NCBI GenBank assembly: GCA_025024175.1
Contig: QCXZ01000137.1
Span: 5,208,001-5,272,000 of the forward strand
Origin: Rhyzopertha dominica
Taxonomy: Eukaryota > Arthropoda > Insecta > Coleoptera > Bostrichidae
Length of the DNA stretch: 64,000 nucleotides
Direction: 5' to 3'
Both the position numbers and the translations under genes were made by a program. The notes below the pieces were generated by a model, which worked only from the letters and a program-made list of their open reading frames with translations, ran no database searches and was not told where the DNA came from. Below, in pieces: positions 2,074 through 59,139 of this stretch. Each line of letters starts with the position of its first letter. Positions within the stretch are counted from its first letter, which is position 1.

Positions 2074-2195
2074 GCTTTATACAATCTGTCAGAGAATTAT
2101 TATTGTGTCAGAATCAATCATTTGGTGTAATTTTTCGTATTAGACGTGTTTTTGGAGCTAGTTAGTTAAGAAGTTAGTTAATTAGTTAGTAGGAA

Positions 2196-3270
2196 ATGGC
2201 GTTTACTCATTTAGAAAAATGCGATATGTTAGAAGTGTATCTTGTTTGCTGTAAAAATAGTGTCCGAGCACTTGAGCAATATGGTCGAATGTACCCTGAT
2301 CGTGATCAACCAGATAGGAGGTATTTTTTGAAGCTCTACAGAAAGTTTAGAAGCAATGAACGGATTTTTGAAAAATCTAGAACTACAAAACAGTTTATAA
2401 TAGATGAACAAGTAGAAATAAATGTGTTGGCATATTTTGACGCAAATAAAAATAATTCAACTAGAGATTTGGTAAGGGATAGTGGCTACAGTTTGTGCAC
2501 AATTTGGAGGATTTTAAGAAAATATAAGTTTGTACCTTATAAGTACCTTCCAGTGCAAACTTTATTACCTGGCGACACTGCAAGAAGACTAATTTTTTTG
2601 TCAGTGGTTGGTAGATATGTGGATGCATAATCCCAATATTTTAAAGAATGTTCTTTGGACTGACGAAGCAAATTTTTCGAATCGGGGTATGTTTAATCGA
2701 AAAAACATGCATTATTGGTCCAGTGAAAATTTATTTATTCCTCATCCCAGAAACCCACAAGGACATTTTAGTGTTAATGTTTGGTGTGGGCTGATGGGCA
2801 GACAAGTAATTGGGCCAATTTTTTATGAAGGCACATTGAATGGAAGGAGATACGTCGACATGCTTTCAGAATTACTCGAAAATTATTTGGATGATATCAA
2901 CTTAGAGACTCGGACCCAAATATATTTCCAACAAGATGGAGCCCCCCCCCCCCCCCCCCATCGCCTTCAGGAAGTAAGAGCGCTGTTAGAGAGATGTTTT
3001 GAAGATAGGTGGATAGGAACGGATGGTCCTATACCTTGGCCCCCAAGATCTCCTGACGTAACTCCATTAGATTTTTACTTTTGGGGTTATGTCAAAGATG
3101 AAGTCTACAAGAGGAGATATGCGAACCTGATAAAACTGAAAAACAATATTAGACGCATTATACGATCCATTGACGGCAGAACAATTTTTAGAGTTACTAC
3201 TCAACGACTACTGAAAAATGTCCGAAAATGTATTGAAGAAAATGGCGATGTTTTCGCACACCTAATGTAA
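2196..3270 (+). pseudogene. Mariner-like DDE/D transposase with one frameshift
   Basis: The first part (2196-2630, 144 aa) is the N-terminal helix-turn-helix DNA-binding region, of the type annotated as DUF4817 in many insect transposases. The second part (in frame from 2608) is the catalytic domain. First Asp is in VLWTDEANF, second in YFQQDGAPP, third in PRSPDVTPLDFYFWG. Together they would make about 357 aa, a usual mariner length. The two parts overlap in different frames; the break maps to a run of seven T near 2590-2598. A run of 18 C (2942-2959) inside the catalytic domain stays in frame but adds prolines right after the second Asp motif, where relatives usually have only one or two. 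As it stands it cannot make a full protein; the T run could also be an assembly error. Confidence 0.85.
2942..2959 (+). repeat. Homopolymer C18 inside the transposase
   Basis: Eighteen consecutive C encode extra prolines just after the catalytic QQDGA motif and keep the frame. Expansion is by whole codons or is a sequencing artefact. Confidence 0.9.
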
Positions 3271-4200: not shown

Positions 4201-4369
4201 ATTGTATAAGCCGATCAATCTGGTGGAATACTGCAGATTTATTTTCATTTTTTTTTATTTGTCATGCAATTACTGAAATAGCACAGAATCTCTCTGGTGT
4301 CACTCAACCATTAAAACAGCTACCAATGCCTGCTTAATTTTTTTGCAAAGTGTCTTAATCCATAAAAAA

Positions 4370-4600
4370 GCCCATGGAGGCCTGCTGTCAGGTTGATGTA
4401 TGCAGGTGCATGCCAACTTGTCAAATTACAGCTAACTTCCTTTATGAAGTCGCACCCATTTGGTATATAGGCAAAACCAGTTCTATGTCTTGCTCTCTCT
4501 ATTAGACCTAAACGACACTGATGAGCTACAATGATAGAGAAATAGATCTATCTGCGGTGCAGACAGCATAGCACAGACATGCATCATTATCGGCAATAAT
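4370..4600 (+). mobile_element. Degenerate copy of the hammerhead-bearing repeat (retrozyme-like)
   Basis: From about 4370 the sequence follows the family unit found at 48471-48904: the GGCCTGCTGTCA block, the TGCATGCCAA block and the CTTCCTTTATGAAG block. About 95 bp of the unit, present in the 48.5 kb copy, is then missing. The TTTGGTATATAGGCAAAACC block and the hammerhead follow. The end contains CAGACATGCAT, as in the 22.8 kb copy. It is clearly older and more diverged than the other copies; no target duplication was found. Confidence 0.7.
4507..4560 (+). ncRNA. Decayed type I hammerhead ribozyme motif
   Basis: The core CTGATGA is intact at 4518-4524 and GAAA at 4539-4542. The short stem III (ATAGATCTAT) is kept and is followed by the C of the cleavage triplet ATC. 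Stem II is weakened (GCTA/TAG with a mismatched closing pair), and stem I no longer pairs beyond two bases. Probably inactive. Confidence 0.6.
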
Positions 4601-8787: not shown

Positions 8788-8813
8788 TGAACCCGTGAAC
8801 AGACTGCAGAAAG

Positions 8814-11009
8814 ATGGCAACGTCATTGACTTTAACGATACCGCTTCCAGCACCTTTGGAAATCAAACAAGGCGATTTAATCGAAAACTTGAAGTTCTTC
8901 AAACAGGCCTGGCAAGTATACAGCATAGCAAGTGGGTTAGAGAAGGAGCCAGAAACTAGAAAGGTAGCAGTGCTGTTATCAGCAATCGGTCCGGAGTGTT
9001 TCAGACTCTACCAGAACTGGCCAATAACTGCTGCTGACAAAGAAAACGTTGAAGGTATTTTTAGAGTACTAGAAACGTATTTAACACCCACTACTAACAA
9101 ACGTTACGAGAGAGCCGTGTTCAATTTGGCAAAACAAGAAAATGAAGAAGATGTAGATAGCTACATAAATAGATTAAGAAAGTTGATTAAAAACTGTGAA
9201 TATGGTGCCATGGCTGACGAGTTATTGTTGGATAAACTGATAGTTTCCATAAAGGATTTGGGTTTAAGAGAAAAACTATGGAGTAATGAAAAAATTACAC
9301 TACCTGAAGCGATTAATACCATCAGGATGACAGAGGTATCAAAAAGGCAGATAAAATCACTGAATGAAGGGAAGACTGAAGAAGTGAACGCAGTAAGAAC
9401 CAAAGAAAGAAGAGGAAGTTACAGAAGATCCAATAGTAAGCAGAGATGGAATAGAGATAGGCGTAATAATGGTGAAAAGAGCTGCAGTTACTGTTTGAAA
9501 TATCATGAAAAAGGAAAGTGTCCGGCTAAAGGAGCGATGTGCAATAACTGTGGAAAAAGAGATCATTTTGCGTTGGCATGTTGGTTTTCAAGCAACAGAA
9601 GAACAAGAAGCATGTCTAGAACAAATAAAAGAGAAAATGTGAAAGAAGTTACCGAAGAACCAGCAGAAACTGAATATGTTTATAAGGTAACAAATGAGAA
9701 AAAAGGTTGCTTAACTGCAAATTTGTGTTTTGTGGTAAATGGGCATGAAAAAATAGTTGGTTGTCAGTTGGATACTGGAGCAACATGCAATGTATTGGGC
9801 TACGAAAACTACAAAGAGATAACTAGTGAAAAGGATATTCAGAAGAGTTCCGTAAAATTAAAATGTTTTGGAGGATCGTCGATTGTACCAGTTGGAGAAG
9901 GAATTATCAGATGCAGAAGGAATGAGAAAGAATACAATTTAGTTTTTCAAATTGTACCAGGCGAGCATATGCCATTGCTTTCTGCAAATGCTTGCCAAAA
10001 ATTAAACTTGATTAAAGTATGCAACGTAATAAACACTGTCGAAGATTGTGATAAAGTTGCTATGAATGAAGTACAGAAAATTTTGTATAAATACAAAAAT
10101 GTATTTAAAGGAGTAGGGAAAATAAATAAAGAGATATCATTGACTATTGAGGAGTGTGCTAAACCTGTAGTGCAGACGCCAAGAAGAATACCTGTTGCTT
10201 TAAGAAAAAGATTTAGAGAGGCTTTAGATGAGCTAGAGAAAGATGGAATAATAGAAAGAGTAGAACAGTCTACAGATTGGACGAGTAATGTTGTGATCGT
10301 CGAGAAGAAAGACAATAAATTGAGGATATGCATAGACCCAAGTGAATTGAATCAAGCACTGAAGAGAGAAAATTACCAGATACCTACAGTGGAAGAAATT
10401 CTGCCTGAAATAACGAAAGCAAAAGTGTTTTCAACTTTTGATGCAAGAAGTGGATTTTGGCAACTTCCATTAGATGACAAATCGAAACTACTTACTACCT
10501 TTTGGACACCTTGGGGAAGGTATTGCTGGAAAAGGTTACCATTTGGCATAGCGCCAGCCCCAGAAATATTCCAGAAAACACAACATGAGATTATTGTGGG
10601 ACTAAAAGGAGTTGAAGTGATCGCAGATGATTTTTTGGTATATGGAGAAGGTACTGATTTTAACGAGGCAGTAAAAGATCACAACAGAAATTTGGAATTG
10701 CTGCTGAATAGACTAAAAGAAATGGGAATGACGCTGAATGATCGAAAAACAAACTTATTAAGAACAGAAGTTTCATTTTTTGGATATCTTTTAACAAAAG
10801 ATGGTTTGAAAGCGGATCCATCCAAAATCAAGGCAATTCAAGAAATCGGTACACCCAAAGATGTAAAGGAGCTACAAAGTTTCCTAGGAATGGTGAATTA
10901 TTTGAGCAAATTTTTACCAAATTTGTCAACAGTATCTGAACCTTTAAGAAAATTGACACATAAAGAAACAGAATGGCATTGGGGGAAAAGAGCACGAAGA
11001 GTCTTTTAA
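8814..11009 (+). CDS. Gypsy Gag-protease-RT (first part of gag-pol)
   Basis: 731 aa from an ATG at 8814. Residues 1-215 are the capsid-like Gag region, rich in charged helices. Two zinc knuckles follow: C224-C227-H231-C236 and C243-C246-H251-C256. The protease site is D320-T-G-A. Reverse transcriptase spans about 440-700, with the first catalytic Asp in FSTFDARSGF (D543) and the catalytic pair in VIADDFLVY (D605, D606). IADD replaces the more usual Y(I/L/V)DD, but both aspartates are present. The frame ends early at 11009 because of a one-base excess in a G/A run near 10980-10990. Translation would otherwise run into the RNase H/integrase frame from 11011. It encodes the structural protein and replication enzymes of the element, acting in cytoplasmic particles. 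Confidence 0.93.
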   Translation: MATSLTLTIPLPAPLEIKQGDLIENLKFFKQAWQVYSIASGLEKEPETRKVAVLLSAIGPECFRLYQNWPITAADKENVEGIFRVLETYLTPTTNKRYERAVFNLAKQENEEDVDSYINRLRKLIKNCEYGAMADELLLDKLIVSIKDLGLREKLWSNEKITLPEAINTIRMTEVSKRQIKSLNEGKTEEVNAVRTKERRGSYRRSNSKQRWNRDRRNNGEKSCSYCLKYHEKGKCPAKGAMCNNCGKRDHFALACWFSSNRRTRSMSRTNKRENVKEVTEEPAETEYVYKVTNEKKGCLTANLCFVVNGHEKIVGCQLDTGATCNVLGYENYKEITSEKDIQKSSVKLKCFGGSSIVPVGEGIIRCRRNEKEYNLVFQIVPGEHMPLLSANACQKLNLIKVCNVINTVEDCDKVAMNEVQKILYKYKNVFKGVGKINKEISLTIEECAKPVVQTPRRIPVALRKRFREALDELEKDGIIERVEQSTDWTSNVVIVEKKDNKLRICIDPSELNQALKRENYQIPTVEEILPEITKAKVFSTFDARSGFWQLPLDDKSKLLTTFWTPWGRYCWKRLPFGIAPAPEIFQKTQHEIIVGLKGVEVIADDFLVYGEGTDFNEAVKDHNRNLELLLNRLKEMGMTLNDRKTNLLRTEVSFFGYLLTKDGLKADPSKIKAIQEIGTPKDVKELQSFLGMVNYLSKFLPNLSTVSEPLRKLTHKETEWHWGKRARRVF

Positions 11010-11010
11010 G

Positions 11011-12891
11011 TTGTTGAAAGAGTTAATTACAAAAGCACCTGTTCTGAGATATTTCAACTCAGCTGAACAAATTATTTTACAATGCGATGCAAGTAGTTAC
11101 GGTGTAGGAGCAGCATTAATTCAAAATGGACAACCTGTGGCATTTTCATCGAAAACGTTAACTGCTGCTGAAAGAAACTATGCACAGATAGAAAAGGAGG
11201 CACTAGCGATAGTGTTTGGATGTCGAAGATTCGATCAGTATTTATGTGGACAAAAGGAAATCATTGTACAAACGGATCATCGTCCACTGATAAATATTTT
11301 CAAAAAATCCATGTTAAAGGCACCGAAAAGACTACAACGGATGATGTTGGCATTACAGAGATACCGATTAAAATTAGTTTATATCGAAGGAAAGAAAATG
11401 ATTTTTGCAGACTTACTTTCAAGAGCACCAGAAAAATCGATCGATGAGACCATTACTGAAAATGAGGTTTACAGAATAAAGCTAATGAAGAATTTTATGA
11501 AAGAGGTTGAAGAAATTAATGCACTTACGACATTGCCAATATCTGAAGAAAGAATTCAAGCCATAAGAGATGCTACACAAAAGGATAAAATATTACAAGC
11601 CATTGGACAGTATGTGTTAAATGGATGGCCAGAAAGTGGAAAAGAATTGAAAGATGAAATTAAAGATTACTTTAAGTATAAAGAAGAAATTGTTTTGCAA
11701 TATGGCTTATTGTTTAAGGGACAACGATTGATAGTACCGCAATCGATGAGAAAAGAGATACTGCATAAACTACATTTAGGACATGGAGGAATAGATGCGA
11801 CTATGAAGTTAGCTAAAGATTCAGTATTTTGGCCTAGGATAAGCATGCATATAAGAGACTGTGTGGCAAGATGTACTGTTTGTCAAGTGAATTCAGAAAC
11901 TCCACAGGATTTACCCATGCAGAGCCACGAAATTCCAAAAAGACCTTTTCAAAGAGTTAGTATGGATGCTTGTGAAATTCTTGAAAAAGGGAAGAGAAGA
12001 AGATATTTGATAATTGTTGATCATTATTCAGACTTTTTCGAAATAGATGAATTACCCGATTTGAGTGCAAGAGCTTTGGTCGAAATTTGTAAGAAGAACT
12101 TTTCGCGTCATGGTATACCAGACTGTGTAATTACAGATAATTCCACTCAGTTTGTGAATGAACAATTCCAGAATATGGCACGAAAATGGAATTTTAATCA
12201 TATTACCAGCTCACCGCATTATCCGAAAGGCAATGGAAAAGCTGAAGCAACAGTTAAGATAGCGAAGAATTTGTTAAAAAAATCAATAGAAGCAGGAGAG
12301 GATTTTTGGTTATCACTTTTACATTTAAGAAACACACCAAATAATATGGGTTCAAGTCCGGTGCAGAGATTGTTTGCAAGAAGAACTAGATGTGTAATAC
12401 CACAAACAGAAGAAATGTTGATACCTAAGATACAAGAAGGAGTGAAAGAAAAGATTGAATTGAAGAGAAAAACCTCTAAATATTATTATGATAGAAAAGC
12501 AAGAAGAAGATTACCGAAGTTGAACGTAGGACAAAATGTGATTGTGAAACTGAAACCAGAAGTGGATAATAAATGGACACAAGGACAGATAAAGGAAAAT
12601 CTCAGTGATAGATCTCTTTTGGTAGGAGTCGGTGATAGTATTTATCGTCGCAACACCCAACACGTAAAACCAATTCCTGAGTTAGAAAGATTCTCATCTC
12701 CTCAGCCTGCAACGTCAGATGTTGCAAGTGCAGTGAAACTGCGTAATTCTCCGAATAAAGTGACTTTCGCTGAATTCTTTGAAGAAAAAGAAATTCCGCC
12801 CTGTTTTCCAACCAAAGGATGTGATACAACAGTACTGAGAAGATCAGAGCGCGTAAAGACAAGACCTGTGAAATTTAGAGACTACGTGTGA
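11011..12891 (+). CDS. Gypsy RNase H-integrase (second part of gag-pol)
   Basis: 626 aa. RNase H occupies the N-terminal part, with D26 in LQCDASSYGVGAA, the conserved KEALA (about E63) and D89 in VQTDHRPL. Integrase follows. The HHCC finger has a His pair around 252-258 and C288-x2-C291; the catalytic triad is D319 (SMDAC), D376 (ITDNSTQF) and E412 (KGNGKAEATVK). The spacing of 35 residues between the last two is typical. The C-terminal part has a basic tail. It starts one base out of frame with the upstream part and probably belongs to one polyprotein. Apart from that break every catalytic residue I can check is present, so the copy is only one change away from coding competence. Confidence 0.92.
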   Translation: MLKELITKAPVLRYFNSAEQIILQCDASSYGVGAALIQNGQPVAFSSKTLTAAERNYAQIEKEALAIVFGCRRFDQYLCGQKEIIVQTDHRPLINIFKKSMLKAPKRLQRMMLALQRYRLKLVYIEGKKMIFADLLSRAPEKSIDETITENEVYRIKLMKNFMKEVEEINALTTLPISEERIQAIRDATQKDKILQAIGQYVLNGWPESGKELKDEIKDYFKYKEEIVLQYGLLFKGQRLIVPQSMRKEILHKLHLGHGGIDATMKLAKDSVFWPRISMHIRDCVARCTVCQVNSETPQDLPMQSHEIPKRPFQRVSMDACEILEKGKRRRYLIIVDHYSDFFEIDELPDLSARALVEICKKNFSRHGIPDCVITDNSTQFVNEQFQNMARKWNFNHITSSPHYPKGNGKAEATVKIAKNLLKKSIEAGEDFWLSLLHLRNTPNNMGSSPVQRLFARRTRCVIPQTEEMLIPKIQEGVKEKIELKRKTSKYYYDRKARRRLPKLNVGQNVIVKLKPEVDNKWTQGQIKENLSDRSLLVGVGDSIYRRNTQHVKPIPELERFSSPQPATSDVASAVKLRNSPNKVTFAEFFEEKEIPPCFPTKGCDTTVLRRSERVKTRPVKFRDYV

Positions 12892-13163: not shown

Positions 13164-13205
13164 AGGCAAAGCGCTTTCAGCTATAATTAGCCATCATCAG
13201 TGCCT
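13164..13205 (-). ncRNA. Hammerhead ribozyme motif of PLE-A
   Basis: Minus strand: AGGCA (stem I), CTGATGA core, one unpaired T, stem II GGCTA/TAGCT with loop ATTA, GAAA, palindromic stem III AGCGCT, cleavage position T, then TGCCT closing stem I with five perfect pairs. Very short stem III is the known pattern of hammerheads in Penelope-like elements, thought to work as dimers. The closing G-U of stem II is a weak point. It would process the element's RNA by self-cleavage. Confidence 0.75.
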
Positions 13206-22733: not shown

Positions 22734-22735
22734 TT

Positions 22736-23096
22736 ACTACAAAAGGTTAAAATGCATGTCTATGCAGTGCTGTCCTGCGCCTCAACCAACTGCAGATAGA
22801 TCTATTTCACTGTCATTACAGCTCATCAGTGCAGTTTAGGTCTAGTGTAGAGAGCAGGCATAGAACTGGTTTTGCTTATATACCAAAACAGACAGCACAG
22901 CATAGACATGCATTTTAATGTATGTCGTTCTTGCCCGCTAGCAAAAAGTACCGTGGGGGCCTACTGTCAAATTGAAGTATGCAGTTGCATGCCAATTTGT
23001 CAGGTTACAGGTCACTTCCTTTAGGAAGTAGTACCCGTTAAGGTAGCTAGGTGGCTTTGTCATCATGTCAATGTAATTCTTACTTACTACAAAAGG
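22736..23096. mobile_element. Hammerhead-bearing repeat (retrozyme-like), 5'-inverted copy
   Basis: The element spans 22747-23085 between exact 11-bp direct repeats ACTACAAAAGG (22736-22746 and 23086-23096). The right part (about 22890-23085) is on the plus strand and follows the family unit to its CTTACTT end. The left part (22747 to about 22890) is the same unit inverted, including the hammerhead. About 25 bp around GCATAGACATGCATTTTAA occurs in both parts, so the inner join is palindromic. This is the layout of a 5' inversion made during target-primed insertion. It also preserves a stretch (TAGACATGCATTTTAATG) that the 48.5 kb copy lacks. Confidence 0.85.
22788..22836 (-). ncRNA. Type I hammerhead ribozyme motif (retrozyme-like copy 2)
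   Basis: Minus strand: AACTGCA (22836-22830), CTGATGA (22829-22823), stem II GCTGT/ACAGT with loop AATG, GAAA (22808-22805), stem III ATA/TAT with loop GATC, cleavage after the C of ATC, then TGCAGTT (22794-22788) giving a perfect 7-bp inner stem I. The stem II closing pair is G-U instead of G-C and the outer part of stem I has decayed, so activity may be reduced. Confidence 0.82.
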
Positions 23097-24643: not shown

Positions 24644-27600
24644 TTACTGTGAAGGTAAGGGATACAATTTGACTACTGGTCTTTTATAGCGGCCAGTAGT
24701 CGTTCGAACTAATGCGACTCTAACCACCCCGTCGGTACCAGGATATATTTGCTCCACTACACCTAGTGGCCATTGCAGAGGCGGCAAGTTGGGCTGATCC
24801 ATAATTACCACAGTCCCTACAGAAAGAGAAGGAGACGTCTTTGACCATTTATTTCGGACCTGAAGCTCATGAAGATATTCTCTCCGCCATCTTACCCAAA
24901 ATGATTGAATCAGATGATCCACTAGCTGATATCTAGACAACCTAGGAAGAGGAATATCGACTACATCCGCCGCAGGAATCCACTTAAGAGGAGTTAAAGT
25001 CAAAAAATGAGACGGTGTCAGTGCAAGTGGTTCTCCAGGGTCTGAACTTAGTGGACAAAGGGGTCTGGAATTCAACACCGCTTCGATTTGAATTAAAACC
25101 GTGTTCAACTCTTCATAAGTTAAAAGTTGTTTTCCAATCACACGAAAGAGGTGAGACTTCACTGACTTAATGTTGGCCTCCCAAATGCCTCCAAAATGCG
25201 GAGCTCCCGGAGGAATAAATTTCCATTCTACTCGGTGGTAAGCAAAGTTATCATTTAATGCGTCCTGATAATCGGCGGAATTCAAAAATTGCGACAACTC
25301 TTTTAGTTGCGCACGTGCGCCCACAAAGTTTGTCCCACAATCTGAGAATATAACATTACAAGGACCTCTACGAGAAATAAACCTGCGAAAGGCTGCTAGA
25401 AACATAGCAGTAGACAATTCAGAAACTAATTCGATGTGAATCGCTTTGGTGGATAAACACACAAATAAGCAAATATACGCTTTGAGTACAACGGGTTTTC
25501 TCCGACGCGCCATGGTAATACTAATCGGTCCAGCGTAGTCTACCCCGCTTTGTAAAAATGGTTTACATTGGGACACCCTACAAGCAGGAAGATTGCCCAT
25601 TTTGGGGGGTGCAACTGAAGGCCGCATCCTAAAACAACTATTACAAGCTCGAATTCTACCCCTTATTACATGACGAGCGGAAAGAATCCAAAATTTTTGT
25701 CTTAATATAGACAACAACAAATGCGGTCCTGCATGGCAGTTGCTTTGATGATAATAATCGATCAATAAATCAACAAAAGTATCTCGTTTTGGTAACACAA
25801 TAGGATGACAACTATCAAAATCCTCATCAGAGTTCCTTAATCGACCTCCAACGCGCATAATTCCCTGATCTAAAAATGGAGTCAACCGTTGAAGTCGGTT
25901 GGAACAAAATTGGCCACCTTGCAGTTTATTGATATCTGAATAAAAATGTGCAGTCTGAACAACTCGACATACATTTAATTCAGCAGCATTCAAATCACTG
26001 AAACTAATTATAGTTCGTTTGGGCAACAACTTTAAGAACCTCAAAACGTACACCAAAATACGTAGCAAACGAGTATAATTTGAACAACGTTTAATTAGAG
26101 TATATATAGAATTAATCTCAATATCCCGTGGCTCAAGTGTTGTTAGGACCGCTTGATGATTTTTTAATTCTGGCTGGCACTCTAGTGGTTCCGGATCCCA
26201 ACTTATGGGCCAATTATTTTGCTCCAACTTTAACCAAAACGGTCCTGTCCACCAGGATGAATTCGCAATCAATTCACAAGGTGTCAGTCCTCTTGAAAGA
26301 CAATCAGCTGGGTTCTCGGAACCTGCTACGTGAAGCCAGTGATCTATTTTACCTTCTTGAATTTTTTCAACGCGGTTAGCGACAAAGGTTTGCCATTTTG
26401 AAGAAGGAGTATTAATCCAGTGAAGTACTACCATAGAATCGGAGAATGCGTAACTACAATGAACTTCACACCGTTCACGGATCACAGATAATACTGTACA
26501 CATAAGTTTGGTTAACAAAAGCGCTGCACAAAGTTCTAAACGCGGAATGGTTTGAAATTTAATCGGGGCCACCTTGGATTTGGCGCACAACAATGACACT
26601 TGAGCATCCCTTTCATCCTCCTCGCTTTTTACATATACGACTGCTCCGTATCCTAACTCAGAGGCATCGCAAAAACCAATCAACGTGACTTTACTGGGTA
26701 TAGATATACCGATATGTCTTGGAATTAAAATTCCAGATAAATGCGATAATTCCTTCTGAAAGATTTCCCACTGTGCCTTAATACAAGGAGGACAAGGATC
26801 ATCCCACTCCAATCGCTGTTGCCACATTTGTTTAAGTATGATTTTTAAGAATAACGTTACGGGTGAAAAAAATCCCAAAGGATCGAACATTCGTGCAATT
26901 GCTGAAAGAATTGTACGTTTTGTTACATCTTTTGTTATCTCGTGAATCTGGAAGCGAAAAACATCACCAGGATTCGGCTGCCACTCCAGACCTAGGATAT
27001 AGAATGTTCCATCATGCTCAAGACCTCTAGTAAGAGAAACATTTTCATCTGAAGGCAAGAAATCTAGAATTTCTGGCGCATTAGAAGCCCACTTTGTCAA
27101 CTGAAATCCACCTGACTCGAATAGTCCCTTAGACTGCTGATATAATACGGCGGCTTCATCCAATGATGGAACAGAAGTTATAAAATCATCCATATACATG
27201 TCTTTCGGTAATCTATCCTTAATAGTTGGAAAGTTTTTCCCCTCTTCCTCAACCAGTTTATGGACCGTTCTTAAAGCCAAATATGGCGATGAACTAATGC
27301 CAAAAACAACGCAATTTAACTCATACGTTTCAATAGGATCCTTGGAAGAGAATCTCCAAGCAATCCGTTGATATTTTCTATGTGATTCGTCTACTATAAT
27401 CTGACGATACATTTGTTTAATATCGGCACTAAGCGCAACAGAAAATAAGCGAAAATGTATTAACAGAACAAAAATGTCGTTTTGCAACTTTGGACCAGCA
27501 AACAATATCTCATTTAGTGATAAATTATTGTCAGTTTTAGCACTGGCATCAAACACAACACGCATAGGCGTGCTACTGCTTTTTTGTTTAAAAATTCCAT

Positions 27601-29824
27601 GATGAGGAATGTAATATCCCTTACAATCGAGATTTTTCTTTGCTAACGACATGTGTCCTTGCTGTAAATAATCAATCATCACCTGATGATACAACTTACG
27701 AAACTCACGATCACGTTCCAGTCGTTTCTCCAAAAGAAGAAGTCTACGTTTAGCCATTTCAAATGAATCTCCTAACCGATCAGGATTATCACGAAAAGGT
27801 AGAGACACTACAAATCGTCCGGACTGCAATCGACGAACAGTGGACTGATAAAGATTTTCACAATCGATTTCATCCGAGGAGCGACGAACACTTGTATCTG
27901 GAATGTCTTCAATTTCCCAAAATTTCCTAATTAACGAATCACCTGTGGGATGACAAGCCATCATGCAACTACTGACATTGTTTGTTGATGAAGCCAAAAT
28001 CGGAGCTTTCCCCATTAAAATATGGCCCAGAACACTATCAACCGCGACTAACTGGTTTGGTTGTATCTGACAGTGTTCTCCTTTTAATAGATGAGGAACT
28101 AACTCAGCCCCTATGATACCATCTATTTCTCCAGGTATGTGGAAACGCTCATCAGCTAGTTTCAAATTCTGTAAATGCCTTAAATGGGAACAATCGATAA
28201 AACTAGCAGGTAGTTTATCTATGATTTTATCAACAACAAAAGGCTCAAACGAAAAAGAAACTTCAGGATTAATTTTGGAGCTAATACAACAGAATGTTTT
28301 TCCGCGAATCGGGTTTAGCGTACCACCGAAACCCATAATGGATGATTTTACTGGATTCATCCTTAATTTGATTTTTCTACAAAATTTAGTTGTCAAGAAA
28401 TGACATTGACTACCCGAGTCGATTAACAATCGAGCATCATAAGATTTACCCTCTTCATTAATTACGTTTACACGAGCTGTAGATAATAACACCGTGGATG
28501 ATACTTCAGCTTTGGAATGACTGTCATTATTAGCAACAGAACAAAGAACTGAAGAAGTGGCTTGATTATCAGCCTCAGCATTAGAATTTACTGGTGAACT
28601 TGTCTTGAATTCAAAATGTAATAAAGTATGATGTGGCTTATTACACTGCATACATTTGACATCTTTATCACAATTGGATACAGAATGGTTTATTGAAAAA
28701 CACTTCAGACAAACGGCTTTATGTTTTAGCAAACGATATCTATCCCAAGGAGACAATTTTAAAAATTCTACACAATCAATTAATGCGTGCACGCCTTTAC
28801 GGCAAATCATGCACGTAGAGGTTTTATTTCCATTTGGATGAGCATAACGTGGTTTAGAATAAGTTACCAAAGCATGAGGCTTAGTAGTATTGCCTTTATT
28901 GGAAAATGCATATTTGTTCGATGATGAACTACGATCAAATGGTAATGTCTTGATTTGCTTTTCAATAAAACTTACGAAATCTGTATAGGTAGGGATATCT
29001 TTTTCTCTGAACGCCGATTCAAAAGCTCGACGTGATTCTGGATCTAAAATTTTCAATCCTCGATTGAGAAAAATAGTATCAGCTAAATCGTTTACATTCA
29101 AACGCTTTAATGCTGTTATCGGTGCACAAAATTTATCTAACACCATTCCTAGACCTTCACGAGACTCTGAACGCAAAGCTTTAAAATCAAAAATCTGATC
29201 TAAATAATCATCAGCTTGGGCTCTAGGATCATTATACCTATCTATCAACGCGTCCCAAATTATGGAATAATTAGTCGCGGTTGGTGATAAATGCTTACAT
29301 ATATTTAAAGCGGAACCAGAAAGTTTAGAAATTAGGTACTGTACTCTCTGCTGATCCGACAGAGTTTTATTTTCGTGGACAAGATTTTTGAAAACCTCAT
29401 AAAAATTAATCCACTGTCTTTGATCCCCGTTAAAAGAAGGAAGTTCGATTTTCGGGAGACGAATGGACGAACCCGCAATATTCGAGGCATCCGACGAAGT
29501 GGTTAAGGTTGACTGACCATTTCCCTTTAAACCTGATCTTTCAGCAGCATCTTCTATATATTCAACAAGATCTCGAATAGCGTCCGCAAAAGTTGGAACA
29601 AATTCTGGATCTAGCTCCATTTGTAAAGCATTTATTCTAAATTCAATATCATCGTAGTCGTTTAGTGTTTTATCTACTAAACGATACGACACTTTAAATT
29701 GTTGCAGAACTTTCGGATCCTCTATATTTTTAGATAAATCGAAAATGCGCTGTATACGCTGAAAAAGCGTAGCCTTTTTAGCATTTAAAATTTTTATAGT
29801 ATCCTCCGCTTTCGGAGCCATCAC
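24644..29824 (-). CDS. BEL/Pao Gag-Pol polyprotein, intact
   Basis: 1726 aa, one open frame. Residues 1-115 are an N-terminal coiled, charged region; 118-290 match the Gag domain annotated as DUF1759 (LPKIELPSFNGDQRQWINF). Cys/His knuckles: C372-C375-H380-C385 and C391-C394-H398. Protease (DUF1758 type): D469-S-G in LLIDSGSQ. RT: first Asp D801 (SADIKQMYRQI), catalytic YMDD at 877-880. RNase H: D1053 (FCDASELGYGA), E1097 (PRLELCA), D1129 (FSDSM). Integrase: H1359, H1364, C1394, C1397 finger and the triad D1429 (GVDYAGP), D1495 (FSDCGTNF), E1549 (HFGGIWEA). The C-terminal domain is of the DUF5641 type. There is no env. Every catalytic residue I looked for is present. The start is the ATG-ATG at 29824, about 350 bp inside the 5' LTR. 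Confidence 0.96.
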   Translation of the reverse strand: MMAPKAEDTIKILNAKKATLFQRIQRIFDLSKNIEDPKVLQQFKVSYRLVDKTLNDYDDIEFRINALQMELDPEFVPTFADAIRDLVEYIEDAAERSGLKGNGQSTLTTSSDASNIAGSSIRLPKIELPSFNGDQRQWINFYEVFKNLVHENKTLSDQQRVQYLISKLSGSALNICKHLSPTATNYSIIWDALIDRYNDPRAQADDYLDQIFDFKALRSESREGLGMVLDKFCAPITALKRLNVNDLADTIFLNRGLKILDPESRRAFESAFREKDIPTYTDFVSFIEKQIKTLPFDRSSSSNKYAFSNKGNTTKPHALVTYSKPRYAHPNGNKTSTCMICRKGVHALIDCVEFLKLSPWDRYRLLKHKAVCLKCFSINHSVSNCDKDVKCMQCNKPHHTLLHFEFKTSSPVNSNAEADNQATSSVLCSVANNDSHSKAEVSSTVLLSTARVNVINEEGKSYDARLLIDSGSQCHFLTTKFCRKIKLRMNPVKSSIMGFGGTLNPIRGKTFCCISSKINPEVSFSFEPFVVDKIIDKLPASFIDCSHLRHLQNLKLADERFHIPGEIDGIIGAELVPHLLKGEHCQIQPNQLVAVDSVLGHILMGKAPILASSTNNVSSCMMACHPTGDSLIRKFWEIEDIPDTSVRRSSDEIDCENLYQSTVRRLQSGRFVVSLPFRDNPDRLGDSFEMAKRRLLLLEKRLERDREFRKLYHQVMIDYLQQGHMSLAKKNLDCKGYYIPHHGIFKQKSSSTPMRVVFDASAKTDNNLSLNEILFAGPKLQNDIFVLLIHFRLFSVALSADIKQMYRQIIVDESHRKYQRIAWRFSSKDPIETYELNCVVFGISSSPYLALRTVHKLVEEEGKNFPTIKDRLPKDMYMDDFITSVPSLDEAAVLYQQSKGLFESGGFQLTKWASNAPEILDFLPSDENVSLTRGLEHDGTFYILGLEWQPNPGDVFRFQIHEITKDVTKRTILSAIARMFDPLGFFSPVTLFLKIILKQMWQQRLEWDDPCPPCIKAQWEIFQKELSHLSGILIPRHIGISIPSKVTLIGFCDASELGYGAVVYVKSEEDERDAQVSLLCAKSKVAPIKFQTIPRLELCAALLLTKLMCTVLSVIRERCEVHCSYAFSDSMVVLHWINTPSSKWQTFVANRVEKIQEGKIDHWLHVAGSENPADCLSRGLTPCELIANSSWWTGPFWLKLEQNNWPISWDPEPLECQPELKNHQAVLTTLEPRDIEINSIYTLIKRCSNYTRLLRILVYVLRFLKLLPKRTIISFSDLNAAELNVCRVVQTAHFYSDINKLQGGQFCSNRLQRLTPFLDQGIMRVGGRLRNSDEDFDSCHPIVLPKRDTFVDLLIDYYHQSNCHAGPHLLLSILRQKFWILSARHVIRGRIRACNSCFRMRPSVAPPKMGNLPACRVSQCKPFLQSGVDYAGPISITMARRRKPVVLKAYICLFVCLSTKAIHIELVSELSTAMFLAAFRRFISRRGPCNVIFSDCGTNFVGARAQLKELSQFLNSADYQDALNDNFAYHRVEWKFIPPGAPHFGGIWEANIKSVKSHLFRVIGKQLLTYEELNTVLIQIEAVLNSRPLCPLSSDPGEPLALTPSHFLTLTPLKWIPAADVVDIPLPRLSRYQLVDHLIQSFWVRWRREYLHELQVRNKWSKTSPSLSVGTVVIMDQPNLPPLQWPLGVVEQIYPGTDGVVRVALVRTTTGRYKRPVVKLYPLPSQ

Positions 29825-30151
29825 TGTTTATTATTTATAACTATTATTAGTAATGACTTAAAGACAAGTACTAGCATCAATTAATTTACCACTTATTAAT
29901 CAATTCCCAGTAAAATAAATTTCCAACTGTAAATATTTCAAGCAGAAATAATACTGTAAGAAAAAGTAGCGATAAGAGCGAACAGGTTCCTAACGAACGG
30001 ATTTACCTGTCGGAATCGACCTTCTTAAACAGGCATTATTTACTTTATAGCGCCTTAAGAATCAGGCCTAAGAAAACGTTGAAAATTACAATCTTTCAAC
30101 TTTACAAATGCCTCAAGCTAACTAACTTATTAAAATCGCGGAACTAATCGT

Positions 30152-39300: not shown

Positions 39301-39415
39301 AGTAAGAATTTAGGATGGCAATGCCATATGTCAGCATTACACAGACATGATGACAAAGCCACCTAGCTGCCTTAACGGGTACTACTTCCTAAAGGATGAC
39401 CTGTAGCCTGACATG
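39301..39415 (-). mobile_element. Fragment of the hammerhead-bearing repeat without ribozyme
   Basis: The minus strand equals the terminal ~113-bp repeat of the 48.5 kb element (TGTCAGGCTACAGGTCA ... ATTCTTACTT), with a few changes. The hammerhead part is absent. This resembles a solo terminal repeat or a 5'-truncated copy. Candidate duplications TGCCTATTTTA/TGCACATTTTT are imperfect. Confidence 0.75.
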
Positions 39416-44105: not shown

Positions 44106-44530
44106 TTACTTACACCAGGTATATAAATTATCAATTTGATTGTGTAATAATACACAGTCATCTAAAGTACTAACATTTGTATACAGTTTAAGATCATCTG
44201 CAAGCATTAAACAAGGGCATGTTATGATCAGTGGTAAGTCGTTAACAAATACTGAAAATAATACGGGCCCTAAGTTAGACCCCAGCGGCACACCCGAGGT
44301 AGGGACAAATGAATTAGAGTGAAGACCACCGTAACACACAAAGTGCACCCTGTTCGGCAAATATGACTTAAGAAGCGATAATAACGGTGCACTAACCCCC
44401 ACCATGTCTAGATTCCTCAACAAGATATAAACATTGAAAGATTGTTTAAGAAATTCTGTACTACTTTTATTACCAAAGACCATCAGTTGCGATTTAGACG
44501 AATTCAAAGCCGTGTTCAGCAGACAATATT
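44106..44530 (-). pseudogene. Non-LTR reverse transcriptase fragment with permuted order
   Basis: 133-aa frame. It contains GVSAPLLSLLKSYLPNRVHF, then SGVPLGSNLGPVLFSVFVND, then LMLADDLKLYTNVS (catalytic pair as LADD), ending DNLYTWCK. The block LNSSKSQLMVFGN, which normally follows the WC(K) region, is found at its N-terminal side instead. So the fragment reads as a circular permutation of the usual palm order. Not a functional gene. Confidence 0.75.
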
Positions 44531-44930
44531 CTTAAGTTTTCAAGATTTTCATTCAGAATTTAGCCAGCCCCAAATTCAAGTAGTTATTGGCGATTTCTTT
44601 TAAAATCTTTTAAAATTAAAGTTCATTGTACCATAATCTTTTAGGAAGTATTGCTGCAATTTTGACATTAACATATAAGAAACNTTTAATAATATACANA
44701 ATAAAAAGTTTAGGAATTGAAATTTGAAATTAAAATAAAAGTGGTTTGTGAATCTGACTAGTGACNACGACGTATATTTNACCTTATTTGTTATCCTCAT
44801 TATATTGTATGCAAAATTTCTGGATTGTTTTATATGTGTATCACATTTAGTATGTACTGGTTAAAATTCCTTTCCCTAATGTAGATGCCCATTTAAAACT
44901 CAAATCAGTAAGTAACATGTTGTTGTTCCA
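44531..44930. other. No gene seen; several Ns
   Basis: AT-rich with ambiguous bases near 44684, 44699, 44766 and 44780. Confidence 0.4.
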
Positions 44931-44972: not shown

Positions 44973-45012
44973 GCCCTGAAGAAGATTGTAATAAAGCAAT
45001 TGAAAGCTTGGC
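44973..45012 (+). ncRNA. Hammerhead ribozyme motif (PLE-D, copy 1)
   Basis: GCC (stem I), core CTGAAGA, stem II GATTG/CAATT with a G-U closing pair and an 8-nt loop, GAAA, palindromic stem III AGCT, then T and GGC closing stem I. Short stems I and III suggest function, if any, as a dimer. Confidence 0.6.
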
Positions 45013-45333: not shown

Positions 45334-45370
45334 GCCCTGATGATGTCTTAAATAAAGACGAAAGCTTGGC
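45334..45370 (+). ncRNA. Hammerhead ribozyme motif (PLE-D, copy 2)
   Basis: GCC (45334-45336), CTGATGA (45337-45343), one unpaired T, perfect 5-bp stem II GTCTT/AAGAC with loop AAATA, GAAA (45360-45363), stem III AGCT, T, then GGC (45368-45370). All core positions match the consensus. The best preserved of the PLE hammerheads in this window. Confidence 0.75.
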
Positions 45371-48355: not shown

Positions 48356-48470
48356 ATTAATAAGGCGGATAGTTGGCCTCTGTGGAGTTGAATCTTGAAA
48401 AGTTACATGTTACATAGCTAACTATTCACTTATAGGAAATGGATCAATTTAGAATAATTTCCTATTGTAT

Positions 48471-48583
48471 TGTCAGGNTACAGGTCACTTCCTTTAGGAA
48501 GTAATACCCGTTAAGGAGCTAGGTGGCTTTGTCATCATGTCAGTGTAATGCTGACAGATGGTATTGCCATATAAATCCTTACT
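48471..48583 (+). repeat. 5' terminal direct repeat of the retrozyme-like element
   Basis: Matches 48792-48904; TGTCAGG ... CTTACTT; one N at 48478. Confidence 0.9.
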
Positions 48584-48633
48584 TACATGAAACCATTGCT
48601 TTGGTATATAGGCAAAACCAGTTCTATGCCGTG

Positions 48634-48717
48634 CTGTCTGCACTAGACCTAAACTGCACTGATGAGCTGTAATGACAGCGAAATAGATCTATCTGCAGTT
48701 GGTTGAGGTGCAGACAG
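48634..48717 (+). ncRNA. Complete type I hammerhead ribozyme
   Basis: Outer stem I: CTGTCTGCAC (48634-48643) pairs perfectly with GTGCAGACAG (48708-48717). Internal loop: TAGACCTA opposite GGTTGAG. Inner stem I: AACTGCA (48652-48658) with TGCAGTT (48694-48700), 7 perfect pairs. Core CTGATGA 48659-48665. Stem II GCTGT/ACAGC (48666-48670, 48675-48679), perfect, loop AATG. GAAA 48680-48683. Stem III ATA/TAT with loop GATC. Cleavage expected after C48693 in the triplet ATC. Every invariant core position is present. The stem I internal loop facing the stem II loop is the place of the tertiary contact in natural fast hammerheads. Predicted self-cleaving RNA on the plus strand. Confidence 0.93.
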
Positions 48718-48791
48718 TCGGTTCTTGCCCGCTAGCAAAAAGTGCCGTGGGGGCCTGCTGTCAAGTTGAAATATGCAGTTGTATGCCAATT

Positions 48792-48904
48792 TGTCAGGCT
48801 ACAGGTCACTTCCTTTAGGAAGTAGTACCCGTTAAGGCAGCTAGATGGCTTTGTCATCATGTCAGTGTAATGCTGACAGATGGTATTGCCATCTAAATTC
48901 TTAC
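48792..48904 (+). repeat. 3' terminal direct repeat of the retrozyme-like element
   Basis: Second copy of 48471-48583; ends CTTACTT directly before the 12-bp duplication. Confidence 0.9.
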
Positions 48905-48916
48905 TTCCTATTGTAT

Positions 48917-56420: not shown

Positions 56421-56489
56421 CCTGGATCAATTAGGTAGCTTGGAAACAGGCTGATTGAACGTATGTGCTTTGTCTCACTTGATTTATAT

Positions 56490-57119
56490 TGTGGAAATTT
56501 GCATAGATCAAAGTTATTTTACGTTCAATGACACATTCTACAAGAAAGACGATGGACTGCCAATGGGTTCACCTTTGTCTCCAGTTTTGGCCGTAATTTT
56601 CACGTCAAATTTCGAAGAAAAGCTTTTTGCAAAGAAAAATGAAATTATTAAAATGTATTATTCTGGACTAGATATGTCGATGATATTTTTTGTATTTGGA
56701 CGGGAACTGACAGGCAATTGGATGTATTCTTAAAATTCTTAAATACAATAAATAAAAAGATTCAATTTGCCATAGAAAAAGAAAAGGATGGAGTTCTTCA
56801 TTTTCTGGACTTATCAATGTCGGTAGAAAATAGTAAAATAGACTTTGAAATTTATAGAAAACCAACACAGTCAGATGTTACAATCCCGGCTTCTTCAAAT
56901 CAATCGTTACAGATTAAGCATTCCGTGTTTTATAGTTTAATAAACAGACTAATAAACATACCACTTAGAAAAGAAAGTTTCGAAAAAGAATTGACGACAA
57001 TTAAACAAATAGCCTTTAACAATGGATACGACACAAAAATTGTGGACCAAATACTTAAAAAGCAATATAAAATTAGAATACAAAGAATGCTGTACAATGC
57101 TAACATCAATGAAAAATAA
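56490..57119 (+). pseudogene. Penelope-type reverse transcriptase, C-terminal half
   Basis: First frame: SYFTFNDTFYKKDDGLPMGS and PLSPVLAVIFTSNFEEKLF, the palm motif before the catalytic site. A frameshift lies between about 56630 and 56665. The second frame then carries the catalytic YVDD at 56673-56684 (TRYVDDIFCIWTG), followed by VLHFLDLSMSVENSKIDFEI and YRKPTQSDVTIPASSNQS, all typical of PLE RT. An in-frame TAA at 57117-57119 interrupts it; the same frame continues through 57120-57221 into the nuclease. The N-terminal half of RT is missing. Confidence 0.88.
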
Positions 57120-57665
57120 CATATTTTTGCCGCAGTAAATTATGTCAAAGGAGTTAGTGTTTGTGTTAAAAATAGGCTGAATAGACTCGGAATAAGAGCA
57201 ATAGAGGTCAATAAGTGCAATTTGGGAGGTCTTCTAGTTAACAATAAGCCAAAATCTAATAAATTGAACGGCATTTACCAAATAAAATGCATGCAATGTG
57301 ACATGATATACACAGGACAATTAGGTAGAGCTATTAAAAACAGAATTAAAGAACACGTTGCGAATGTAAATTCAAACAAAAGCACGAATGATTTTGCTGA
57401 CCATTTCATAAGAAATAATCATCATTTAGATGAAAACCACGTCAAAATTTTGCATTGCGAAAGGAAAGGTAAAAAACTGAACCTTTTGGAAATTAAAAAA
57501 GCTCAGCATCAGAAAAAACATTTAGCAAATACAAATAGAAATTCCCACGTCAGGTACGCCTTTGATATTGCCCAAATTATAAACCCAGGCGAGAGTTTTT
57601 ACAACTGTATTTTACAACCCCTGCAAAAAAGGGGATGCAAACAAATTCTGCACATCGGAGTTTAG
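57120..57665 (+). pseudogene. GIY-YIG endonuclease of PLE-C
   Basis: In frame with the RT. The linker (57120-57221) has no stop; the nuclease reads LNGIYQIKCMQCDMIYTGQL with the GIY and YTG pair and a CxxC, then RIKEHVANV with the catalytic Arg, and LNLLEIKKAQ with the usual Glu. It ends at a TAG at 57665. This domain nicks DNA to prime element insertion. Intact by itself, but fused in frame to a stop-bearing RT. Confidence 0.88.
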
Positions 57666-57679
57666 TATAACGCTGTTAT

Positions 57680-57721
57680 TTCTTTGACAATGACCGTTTT
57701 AGGTCGAAACGATCGTCAGAG
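57680..57721 (+). ncRNA. Variant hammerhead-like motif (PLE-C)
   Basis: TTCT (57680-57683), core TTGACAA (57684-57690), unpaired T, stem II GACC/GGTC with loop GTTTTA, GAAA (57706-57709), stem III ACG(AT)CGT palindrome, cleavage triplet GTC (57715-57717), AGAG closing stem I (one G-U). Core positions 3 and 8 are U and A instead of C and G. A competing 7-bp helix CTTTGAC/GTCAGAG is possible. Confidence 0.55.
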
Positions 57722-57779
57722 TTATCTTATAAATCAAGTGAGACAAAGCACATACATTCAATCCAGGGTTGGCATGATT

Positions 57780-57920
57780 AAAACAAAATGTTTAAAACAG
57801 AATGTTTTAAACTTGTTTAAAACAACGCTTCTGTTTAAAACTTTGTTTTAAACAAATGTTTAAATCATTTGTTTTAAACAGTGATTTTTTTTGTTAATGT
57901 TTTAAACAGTGTTTTTTGAT
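57780..57920. repeat. Subterminal GTTTAAAAC-type motif cluster, left end of hAT
   Basis: At least seven copies of GTTTAAAAC/GTTTTAAAC in 140 bp, in both orientations; mirrored at 59600-59700. Confidence 0.75.
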
Positions 57921-58152
57921 TACTATTACGTGTGATTCATTAATTATTACTATTAAGCTCGTTTATATTCCACAAATAGATAGACAAGATTATTAGCAAT
58001 TACATATCTACATAATGTCACCCCACATTTGCATTAAAGATGAATTGAATACAAAGCCAGACCCAGTTAGAAAATACGTAAATGTTTTTTTCAAACTTTT
58101 TATTGATACAACAGTTTTAATTTAACTTTAACATTTTTTATATTTAATGAAT

Positions 58153-58194
58153 AGGCAAAGCGCTTTCAGCTATAATTAGCCATCATCAGTGCCT
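58153..58194 (-). ncRNA. Hammerhead ribozyme motif of PLE-A (left arm)
   Basis: Same structure as at 13205-13164: AGGCA, CTGATGA, stem II GGCTA/TAGCT, GAAA, AGCGCT, T, TGCCT, with perfect stem I. Confidence 0.72.
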
Positions 58195-58296
58195 CATTGT
58201 GTAAAAAAGAATACAAAAGAATTTATCTTGACTTCAAACAAAAAAGTAGCCTGCATGCCAAAAGCACAAACATGAAATCAATGATCAGATAAAGAA

Positions 58297-58580
58297 TCAG
58301 AATAGGACAGATAAATTACAAAAACCATTCAAAATTGTAAAATTACCGTTATCTATAATTTTGTATATTTCAAGAATTTCTAGAAAATTTAATTTTGAGG
58401 ATTTATTATAAACATGTAAAGAATTTAAATTATTTAAAGAGGCAGTGTGTTTAAATGACAATAAATGATTTGCTAATGAAGAATTTGTATTAACTATATC
58501 AGTATTTTTCATATTGTTTCAAGTGTTAATTGCCTCTAATTGAAAAAGACCTTCCGCTTTGACCAATATAAACAGAATTA
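58297..58580 (-). pseudogene. GIY-YIG endonuclease relic of PLE-A
   Basis: Includes IVNTNSSLANHLLSFKHTAS and LNFLEILEIYKI (the usual Glu block), closely matching the relic at 13370-13665. Upstream GIY motif region decayed. Confidence 0.7.
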
Positions 58581-58834
58581 CAGAATTAAAACTATAAACT
58601 CCCGAATGATTCAAAACTGTTATTTTGTCTTTATTGCGAACAAAATGGTAATTTTACAATTTTGAATGGTTTTTGTAATTTTAGTCGTCCTTTTCTAAAT
58701 TCTTTATTTGATCATTGATTTCATGTTTGTGCTTTTGGCATACAGGCTACTTTTTTGTTTGAAGTCAAGATCGCTTGTTTCGATTTTGACAATGTCAGGT
58801 TTATAAATTCTTTTGTATTCTTTTTTACACAATG

Positions 58835-58876
58835 AGGGACTGATGATGGCTAATTATAGCTGAAAGCGCTTTGCCT
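58835..58876 (+). ncRNA. Hammerhead ribozyme motif of PLE-A (right arm)
   Basis: AGGGA, CTGATGA (58840-58846), stem II, GAAA, AGCGCT, T, TGCCT; one G-G mismatch in stem I compared with the left arm. Confidence 0.68.
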
Positions 58877-59139
58877 ATTCATTAAATATAGTAGATTTGA
58901 TAGACTTCGGGGAGATTTATTGTAGAAGTAAACATTACTCTTATATCCACTTAGAGGAAAATGGACCAGTTTACATTGTTTAAAAGTCTTAAACTTAACA
59001 TAACAGAAAAATTTGTATTTCTGGTCCAATACTACAAAACCATAAATAAGAGGTTCATTCAACACTTACTAGATAATTATATCTTTAGTACAAAAAAAAC
59101 AAATAGTTATCAGAACTTGGGAATATAAAAAACAATAGA

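Follow-up and report, generated by a model that had tools for sequence, protein, structure and literature searches.

Positions 48471-48904 of the window (the whole 64-kb stretch of DNA analysed, from Rhyzopertha dominica) hold a short insertion, here called copy C, with a direct repeat at each end and a hammerhead ribozyme motif between the repeats. Its features, including the flanking target site duplications (TSDs), are as follows.

48459..48470, no strand: left TSD of copy C, TTCCTATTGTAT, 12 bp
48471..48904, + strand: copy C, the element as first reported, 434 bp
48471..48582, + strand: terminal repeat R1 of copy C, 112 bp
48583..48904, + strand: one contiguous unit of copy C, 322 nt
48627..48726, + strand: extended type I hammerhead with a rod-like stem I (from Rfam, folding and coordinates)
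48652..48700, + strand: hammerhead core, comprising stem I, CTGATGA, stem II, GAAA, stem III and C17
48693..48694, + strand: predicted cleavage site, C17^T (by coordinates)
48792..48904, + strand: terminal repeat R2 of copy C, 113 bp, TGTCAGG...AATTCTTAC
48905..48916, no strand: right TSD of copy C, TTCCTATTGTAT, identical to the left at 12/12 positions

A preliminary description had presented copy C as a 434-bp non-coding element with exact 12-bp flanking repeats and direct terminal repeats of about 113 bp at a period of 321 bp, and this anatomy was borne out. None of 20,000 random flank pairs drawn from the window was as good as the 12-bp TSD. R1 and R2 share their left (TGTCAGG) and right (CTTAC) ends and agree at 107 of 111 comparable positions, one N (in R1) being left out of the count, plus a 1-bp indel; the period is 321 bp before the indel and 322 bp after it. 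When the frames of the window were screened, no stop-to-stop frame of at least 110 aa was found to overlap 48459-48916. The GC content is 44%, i.e., below 50%.

Searches with copy C as query (BLAST and nhmmer) revealed three further insertions, giving four copies of the family (A, B, C and D) in 64 kb. The preliminary description had overlooked the other three, together with the inversion in copy B and the Penelope-like remnants discussed below.

4365..4558, + strand: copy A, old and internally deleted, with a degraded hammerhead (80-87% identity)
22734..22746, no strand: left TSD of copy B, 13 bp, TTACTACAAAAGG
22747..22888, - strand: inverted 5' segment of copy B, with an intact-looking hammerhead
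22889..23083, + strand: forward 3' segment of copy B, ending ...AATTCTTAC
23084..23096, no strand: right TSD of copy B, 13 bp, TTACTACAAAAGG
39302..39413, - strand: copy D, a solo terminal repeat with both ends as in R2

The right end of copy C recurred in copy D and, if an internal deletion is accepted (see below), in copy B, which also has a 13-bp TSD. Copy B as a whole (22747-23083) consists of two parts placed head to head, the 5' part on the minus and the 3' part on the plus strand, with the inversion junction located to a precision of about 2 bases. The two parts overlap by about 30 nt of unit sequence, mostly within a 29-nt stretch that, by eye, is absent from copy C. Only 1 of 20,000 random flank pairs was as good as the TSD of this copy. 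The flanks of copy D match at 8/13 positions, which 1037 of 20,000 random pairs equalled, and its TSD is not convincing. By eye, copy A continues to about 4584 and stops there, and no TSD was seen in its flanks. No array longer than a partial tandem was found in the window. Exact-pattern scans of viral and prokaryotic contig collections gave no match, a result that is little informative given those taxa.

The window is also rich in other transposable elements. Ty3/gypsy-like frames (8799-12891, + strand) and a BEL/Pao-like frame of 1727 aa without a stop (24644-29827, - strand) were named by eye from their translations. A transposase at 2193-3270 (+ strand) is spread over two overlapping frames with DUF4817 and DDE_3-like domains, DDE_3 falling below its cut-off. 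It has 337 related proteins, the closest among the matches listed reaching up to 74% identity over the full query; among the best 120 of the 337, five carry an organism's name, with identities of 41-42%. Three of the five come from aphids, one from a wasp and one from a sea spider, which makes an arthropod host likely.

A type I hammerhead in copies C and B

The hammerhead of copy C lies between R1 and R2, and its coordinates confirmed the full type I core that had been claimed. CTGATGA (48659-48665) is followed by a 5-bp stem II (48666-48670/48675-48679, loop AATG), exactly as described before, then by A15.1 at 48683, a stem III of three A-T pairs (48683-48685/48690-48692, loop GATC) and C17 at 48693. 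The cut is predicted 3' of C17, at the position proposed earlier. Of the stem I first described as 7 bp plus 10 bp, the proximal 7 bp (48652-48658/48694-48700) stood, and in the free fold stem I is extended by 4 bp and then by 12 bp more.

A generic descriptor (CTGANGA, stem II of at least 4 bp, GAA, A15.1-U16.1, H17 and stem I of at least 4 bp) matched twice in the 64-kb window, in copies C and B, and had no match in 100 first-order resampled windows. With a looser pattern, drawn up after inspection of copy C, there were three sites in the window against a mean of 0.01 in 100 shuffles. Copy B is about 7% diverged; its hammerhead core is preserved, as are the three proximal stems apart from a single change, G-C to G-T at 10.1-11.1.

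The covariance-model check suggested in the preliminary description went against it, in that no Rfam match was obtained anywhere in the window at gathering scores. The best Rfam match of copy C was HH9 (28.5 bits, E 4e-5 for 491 bases), which falls below the HH9 gathering cut-off of 52. In a lax Rfam scan, the hammerhead of copy B also matched HH9 below the cut-off (24.0 bits, E 0.0011), and copy A did so at chance level (12.8 bits, E 3.3).

The free fold of the hammerhead region had a z-score of -6.4, with none of 200 shuffles being equally stable. The hammerhead fold is not the minimum: without constraints, the most stable structure (-45.7 kcal/mol) has some of the core bases wrongly paired, and the enforced hammerhead fold (-42.1 kcal/mol) lies 3.6 kcal/mol above it, in a folding model that ignores the non-canonical contacts of the hammerhead core. 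Folded as a circle, the unit 48583..48904 reached -116.1 kcal/mol with 68% of its bases paired (z -5.2; equally stable shuffles 0/100).

Insertion ends and template

The right end ...AATTCTTAC is common to copies B, C and D. Placing it in copy B requires accepting a 28-nt internal deletion between two AAT motifs; in a MAFFT alternative, copy B ends at a similar upstream site, with two changes. Copy A stops elsewhere, at ...GACATGCAT just 3' of the ribozyme (by eye), so that AATTCTTAC is the right end in three of the four copies. The start of the inverted segment of copy B (22747-22760, ...GACATGCATTTTAA) lies near the unit position at which copy A ends, and the two may mark a second start point of reverse transcription. 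The left end TGTCAGG is shared by copies C and D, i.e., by two copies only.

The AATTCTTAC end lies 211 nt 3' of the predicted cut, and the element end is therefore not a ribozyme end. Beyond AATTCTTAC the unit continues with TTACATG, and the targets start with TTCC (copy C), TTAC (copy B) and TTTA (copy D). Target and RNA could thus pair over 2-4 bases; owing to the TT or TTAC at the junctions, the start point is also defined only to within 2-4 nt. AATT spans the left border of the TSD in copies B and C.

Since copy C contains more than one unit and an intact hammerhead, the sequences on either side of the cut were contiguous in its template. Judging from the sequence, this template would have been a circle or a concatemer, the two giving the same insertion, and reverse transcription past one unit, as originally proposed, appears to be the simplest account of 434 bp derived from a 321/322-nt unit. 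The insertion length is equally compatible with a linear template, transcribed through a tandem in the genome, in place of a circle, and in the cited passages on a Penelope-like element (PLE) from Anolis, unprocessed RNA was the main substrate in vitro (PMC11167929). The differences between R1 and R2 (five, with the N position omitted) point the other way: compared with copy D, each is private to one repeat, as one circular unit would give, and compared with copy B they are private at the three sites with data, the other two having none. This pattern weakly fits an origin of both repeats from one unit, with mutations in the repeats afterwards. We give the linear template an appreciable chance, although one well short of even.

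Penelope-like remnants and a possible mobilising enzyme

Two remnants that resemble PLEs lie in the same window.

56500..57665, + strand: Penelope-like remnant with a YVDD stretch, an in-frame stop and a GIY-YIG-like stretch
58126..58903, no strand: second Penelope-like remnant, with inverted arms 93-97% complementary and GIY-YIG-like residues seen by eye only

The first, a candidate relative of the mobilising machinery, lies within 56453-57763 between inverted arms of 36 bp that are 97% complementary. Its GIY-YIG piece matched Pfam at 18.9 bits (E 0.0019), below the cut-off of 22.6, found no homologous protein at E 0.001 and gave only a meaningless match (E 0.53) against the PDB. The reverse transcriptase (RT) piece had no match in Pfam, the PDB or phage proteins, and its assignment thus rests on a motif that we take to be Penelope-like. 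BLAST and nhmmer detected no shared sequence between the PLE remnants and the retrozyme in the window; the link to PLEs therefore rests on the anatomy of the insertions.

Several motifs in the window recall hammerheads. Each arm of 58126-58903 carries CTGATGATGGCTAATTATAGCTGAAAGCGCTTTGCC, a hammerhead-like motif with a palindromic GCGC and an off-consensus stem II that occurs again at 13175-13200. As hammerheads, the CTGATGATGGCTAATTATAGCTGAAAGCGC motifs near 13175, 58164 and 58840 failed the generic descriptor, and a lax Rfam scan of 57600-58950 found no hammerhead match for the two near 58 kb, so we do not call them hammerheads. Motifs of the form CTGA(A/T)GA...GAAAGCTTGG at 44976-45005 and 45337-45363 look like minimal hammerheads and likewise failed the descriptor. 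Just upstream of copy C is a pair of inverted arms (48082-48099/48327-48344, 18 nt, 78%), the second of which contains GCTGAAAGCGCTTTGCC, so that the pair may be a further remnant related to 58126-58903.

Of the features expected of mobilisation by PLEs, the inversion, the partial tandem and the TSDs were seen here; the right end is common to three of four copies, copy A differing, and the set does not distinguish a PLE from a LINE. Copies B, C and D resemble published outcomes of Penelope-like insertion in having a partial tandem, a head-to-head inverted 5' part with an overlap, a solo terminal repeat, TSDs of about 10 bp and a right end within the unit; unlike PLEs, the retrozyme has no RT/endonuclease gene. 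For bdelloid Penelopes, the passages cited describe partial tandems, solo pLTRs, TSDs of 8, 9 and 10 bp and head-to-head inverted pLTRs with an overlapping direct pLTR; they attribute the inversions to self-priming rather than to extension of both strands, and mention solo pLTRs, and some other insertions, without TSDs (PMC3846280). The Anolis PLE is described as starting reverse transcription internally, preferring ATT sites and extending both strands; its start site, in the portion cited, had no homology to the target, in contrast to the target pairing proposed here (PMC11167929).

These likenesses suggest the following cycle. Tandem or partial-tandem transcripts would self-cleave at the type I hammerhead, as their sequence implies, and, as for published retrozymes, the monomers would be circularised or uncut multimers would persist. 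A Penelope-like RT/GIY-YIG enzyme would then nick AT-rich DNA and usually begin cDNA synthesis within the unit, 211 nt downstream of the cut (...AATTCTTAC|TTACATG), where pairing of 2-4 nt between target end and RNA may help; the end point is seen in three copies, and from it we infer the priming. Copying would go once round plus 112 nt more (copy C) or end after 112 nt (copy D), a copy inverted head to head, as B is, would arise where both nicked strands are extended, and repair would leave TSDs of 12-13 bp, the length found in copies B and C. By analogy with the published insertions, we put the chance that a Penelope-like enzyme moved these retrozymes at about even.

A LINE-type enzyme could instead have moved the same retrozyme family, copy B then being a product of ordinary twin priming, the process described for L1 insertions that are inverted and truncated and lie between TSDs (PMC2837659). 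Consistent with this, the 15-bp TSDs of Nematostella retrozymes are compared with LINE insertions in the passage cited (PMC4918200), and the window contains a fragment of a non-LTR-type RT (44106-44531; RVT_1, E 6e-6, below the cut-off). However, the right ends of copies B, C and D carry neither poly(A) nor a microsatellite tail, the right end lies within the unit, AATT crosses the left border of the TSD in copies B and C, and solo-repeat and partial-tandem copies are as reported for PLEs (PMC3846280, in part). We regard a LINE-type mover as unlikely, without being far-fetched.

Probable retrozyme identity and implications

Metazoan retrozymes are described as units of about 170-400 nt with low GC, type I hammerheads and large TSDs, in genomes that also contain PLEs, and insects are listed among their hosts (PMC7229834, in the sections cited). 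The family found here has a type I hammerhead with an intact core (Rfam HH9 below the cut-off), a partly tandem unit of 321/322 nt, no coding frame, a GC content under 50%, a unit RNA predicted to be highly paired and dispersed copies, two of the four having TSDs longer than 4 bp (12 and 13 bp). These properties support the identification made in the preliminary description, and from the sequence the copy C family is very probably a metazoan non-LTR retrozyme.

The reading of the 113-bp repeats as true LTRs, with copy D a solo LTR left by recombination, draws on the common ends of R1 and R2, the bounding of copy D by both ends and the repeat's initial TG. Plant LTR retrozymes have 4-bp TSDs (PMC7229834, in the part cited), whereas those here are 12-13 bp; the repeat terminates in AC, not CA; copy B is inverted; and neither a primer-binding site nor a polypurine tract was noticed by eye. 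We rejected this reading, which is very improbable, on TSD length, repeat ends and copy B. A chance hammerhead inside an unrelated repeat (a SINE or satellite fragment) would suit the sub-threshold Rfam score and the loss of structure in copy A, but it is the least credible of all, given the descriptor's absence from the resampled windows and the conservation of core and proximal stems in copy B.

The present family shares a non-autonomous retroelement nature and a hammerhead with plant LTR retrozymes and differs from them in its hammerhead type (I rather than III) and TSD length; its unit is about half as long as theirs. Nor does the element contain the RT plus GIY-YIG frame of an autonomous PLE. 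Its hammerhead combines a 3-bp stem III with a long stem I, whereas PLE hammerheads have the minimal form. By description, its closest counterparts are the metazoan non-LTR retrozymes of coral, mussel, axolotl, Nematostella and the tick Argas monolakensis (PMC7229834 and PMC4918200, in part), which it resembles in its type I hammerhead, unit of about 320 bp, GC content, lack of an ORF, partial tandem, large TSD and highly paired RNA. The four copies in the window differ in form, C being a partial tandem, B inverted, D a solo repeat and A decayed, and no array of greater length was found among them. Among insects, interspersed repeats with hammerheads were reported from Aedes aegypti in 2011 (PMC3088659, as excerpted), and a hammerhead repeat, pDo500, is described from Dolichopoda cave crickets (PMC2837043, as excerpted). 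The latter, compared by description only, is a satellite of about 500 bp, whereas the copies here are dispersed insertions with TSDs.

Animal retrozymes are thus already known, with insect and tick hosts, and what is fresh here is the set of insertion structures. We conclude that these copies probably represent a non-autonomous metazoan retrozyme family of about 320-350 nt per unit, perhaps moved through the Penelope-like cycle proposed above. More tentatively, a Penelope-like enzyme may initiate on a circular hammerhead RNA, at an internal site that it prefers, through 2-4 nt of target pairing, with both nicked strands extendable, the number of laps and a preferred stop at TGTCAGG then setting a partial-tandem, solo-repeat or inverted outcome; we think this full scheme possible rather than likely. 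Metazoan retrozymes give rise to linear and circular RNAs, and PLEs are named, in the sections cited, only as likely candidates for the mobilising enzyme (PMC7229834, PMC7761336). The mobilisation question would take more than four copies to settle. If the scheme were true, it would provide evidence, at the genome level, as to which enzyme moves animal retrozymes. Clean TSDs, an internal right end common to three copies and an inverted copy together make a countable test of mobilisation by PLEs in copy-rich genomes.
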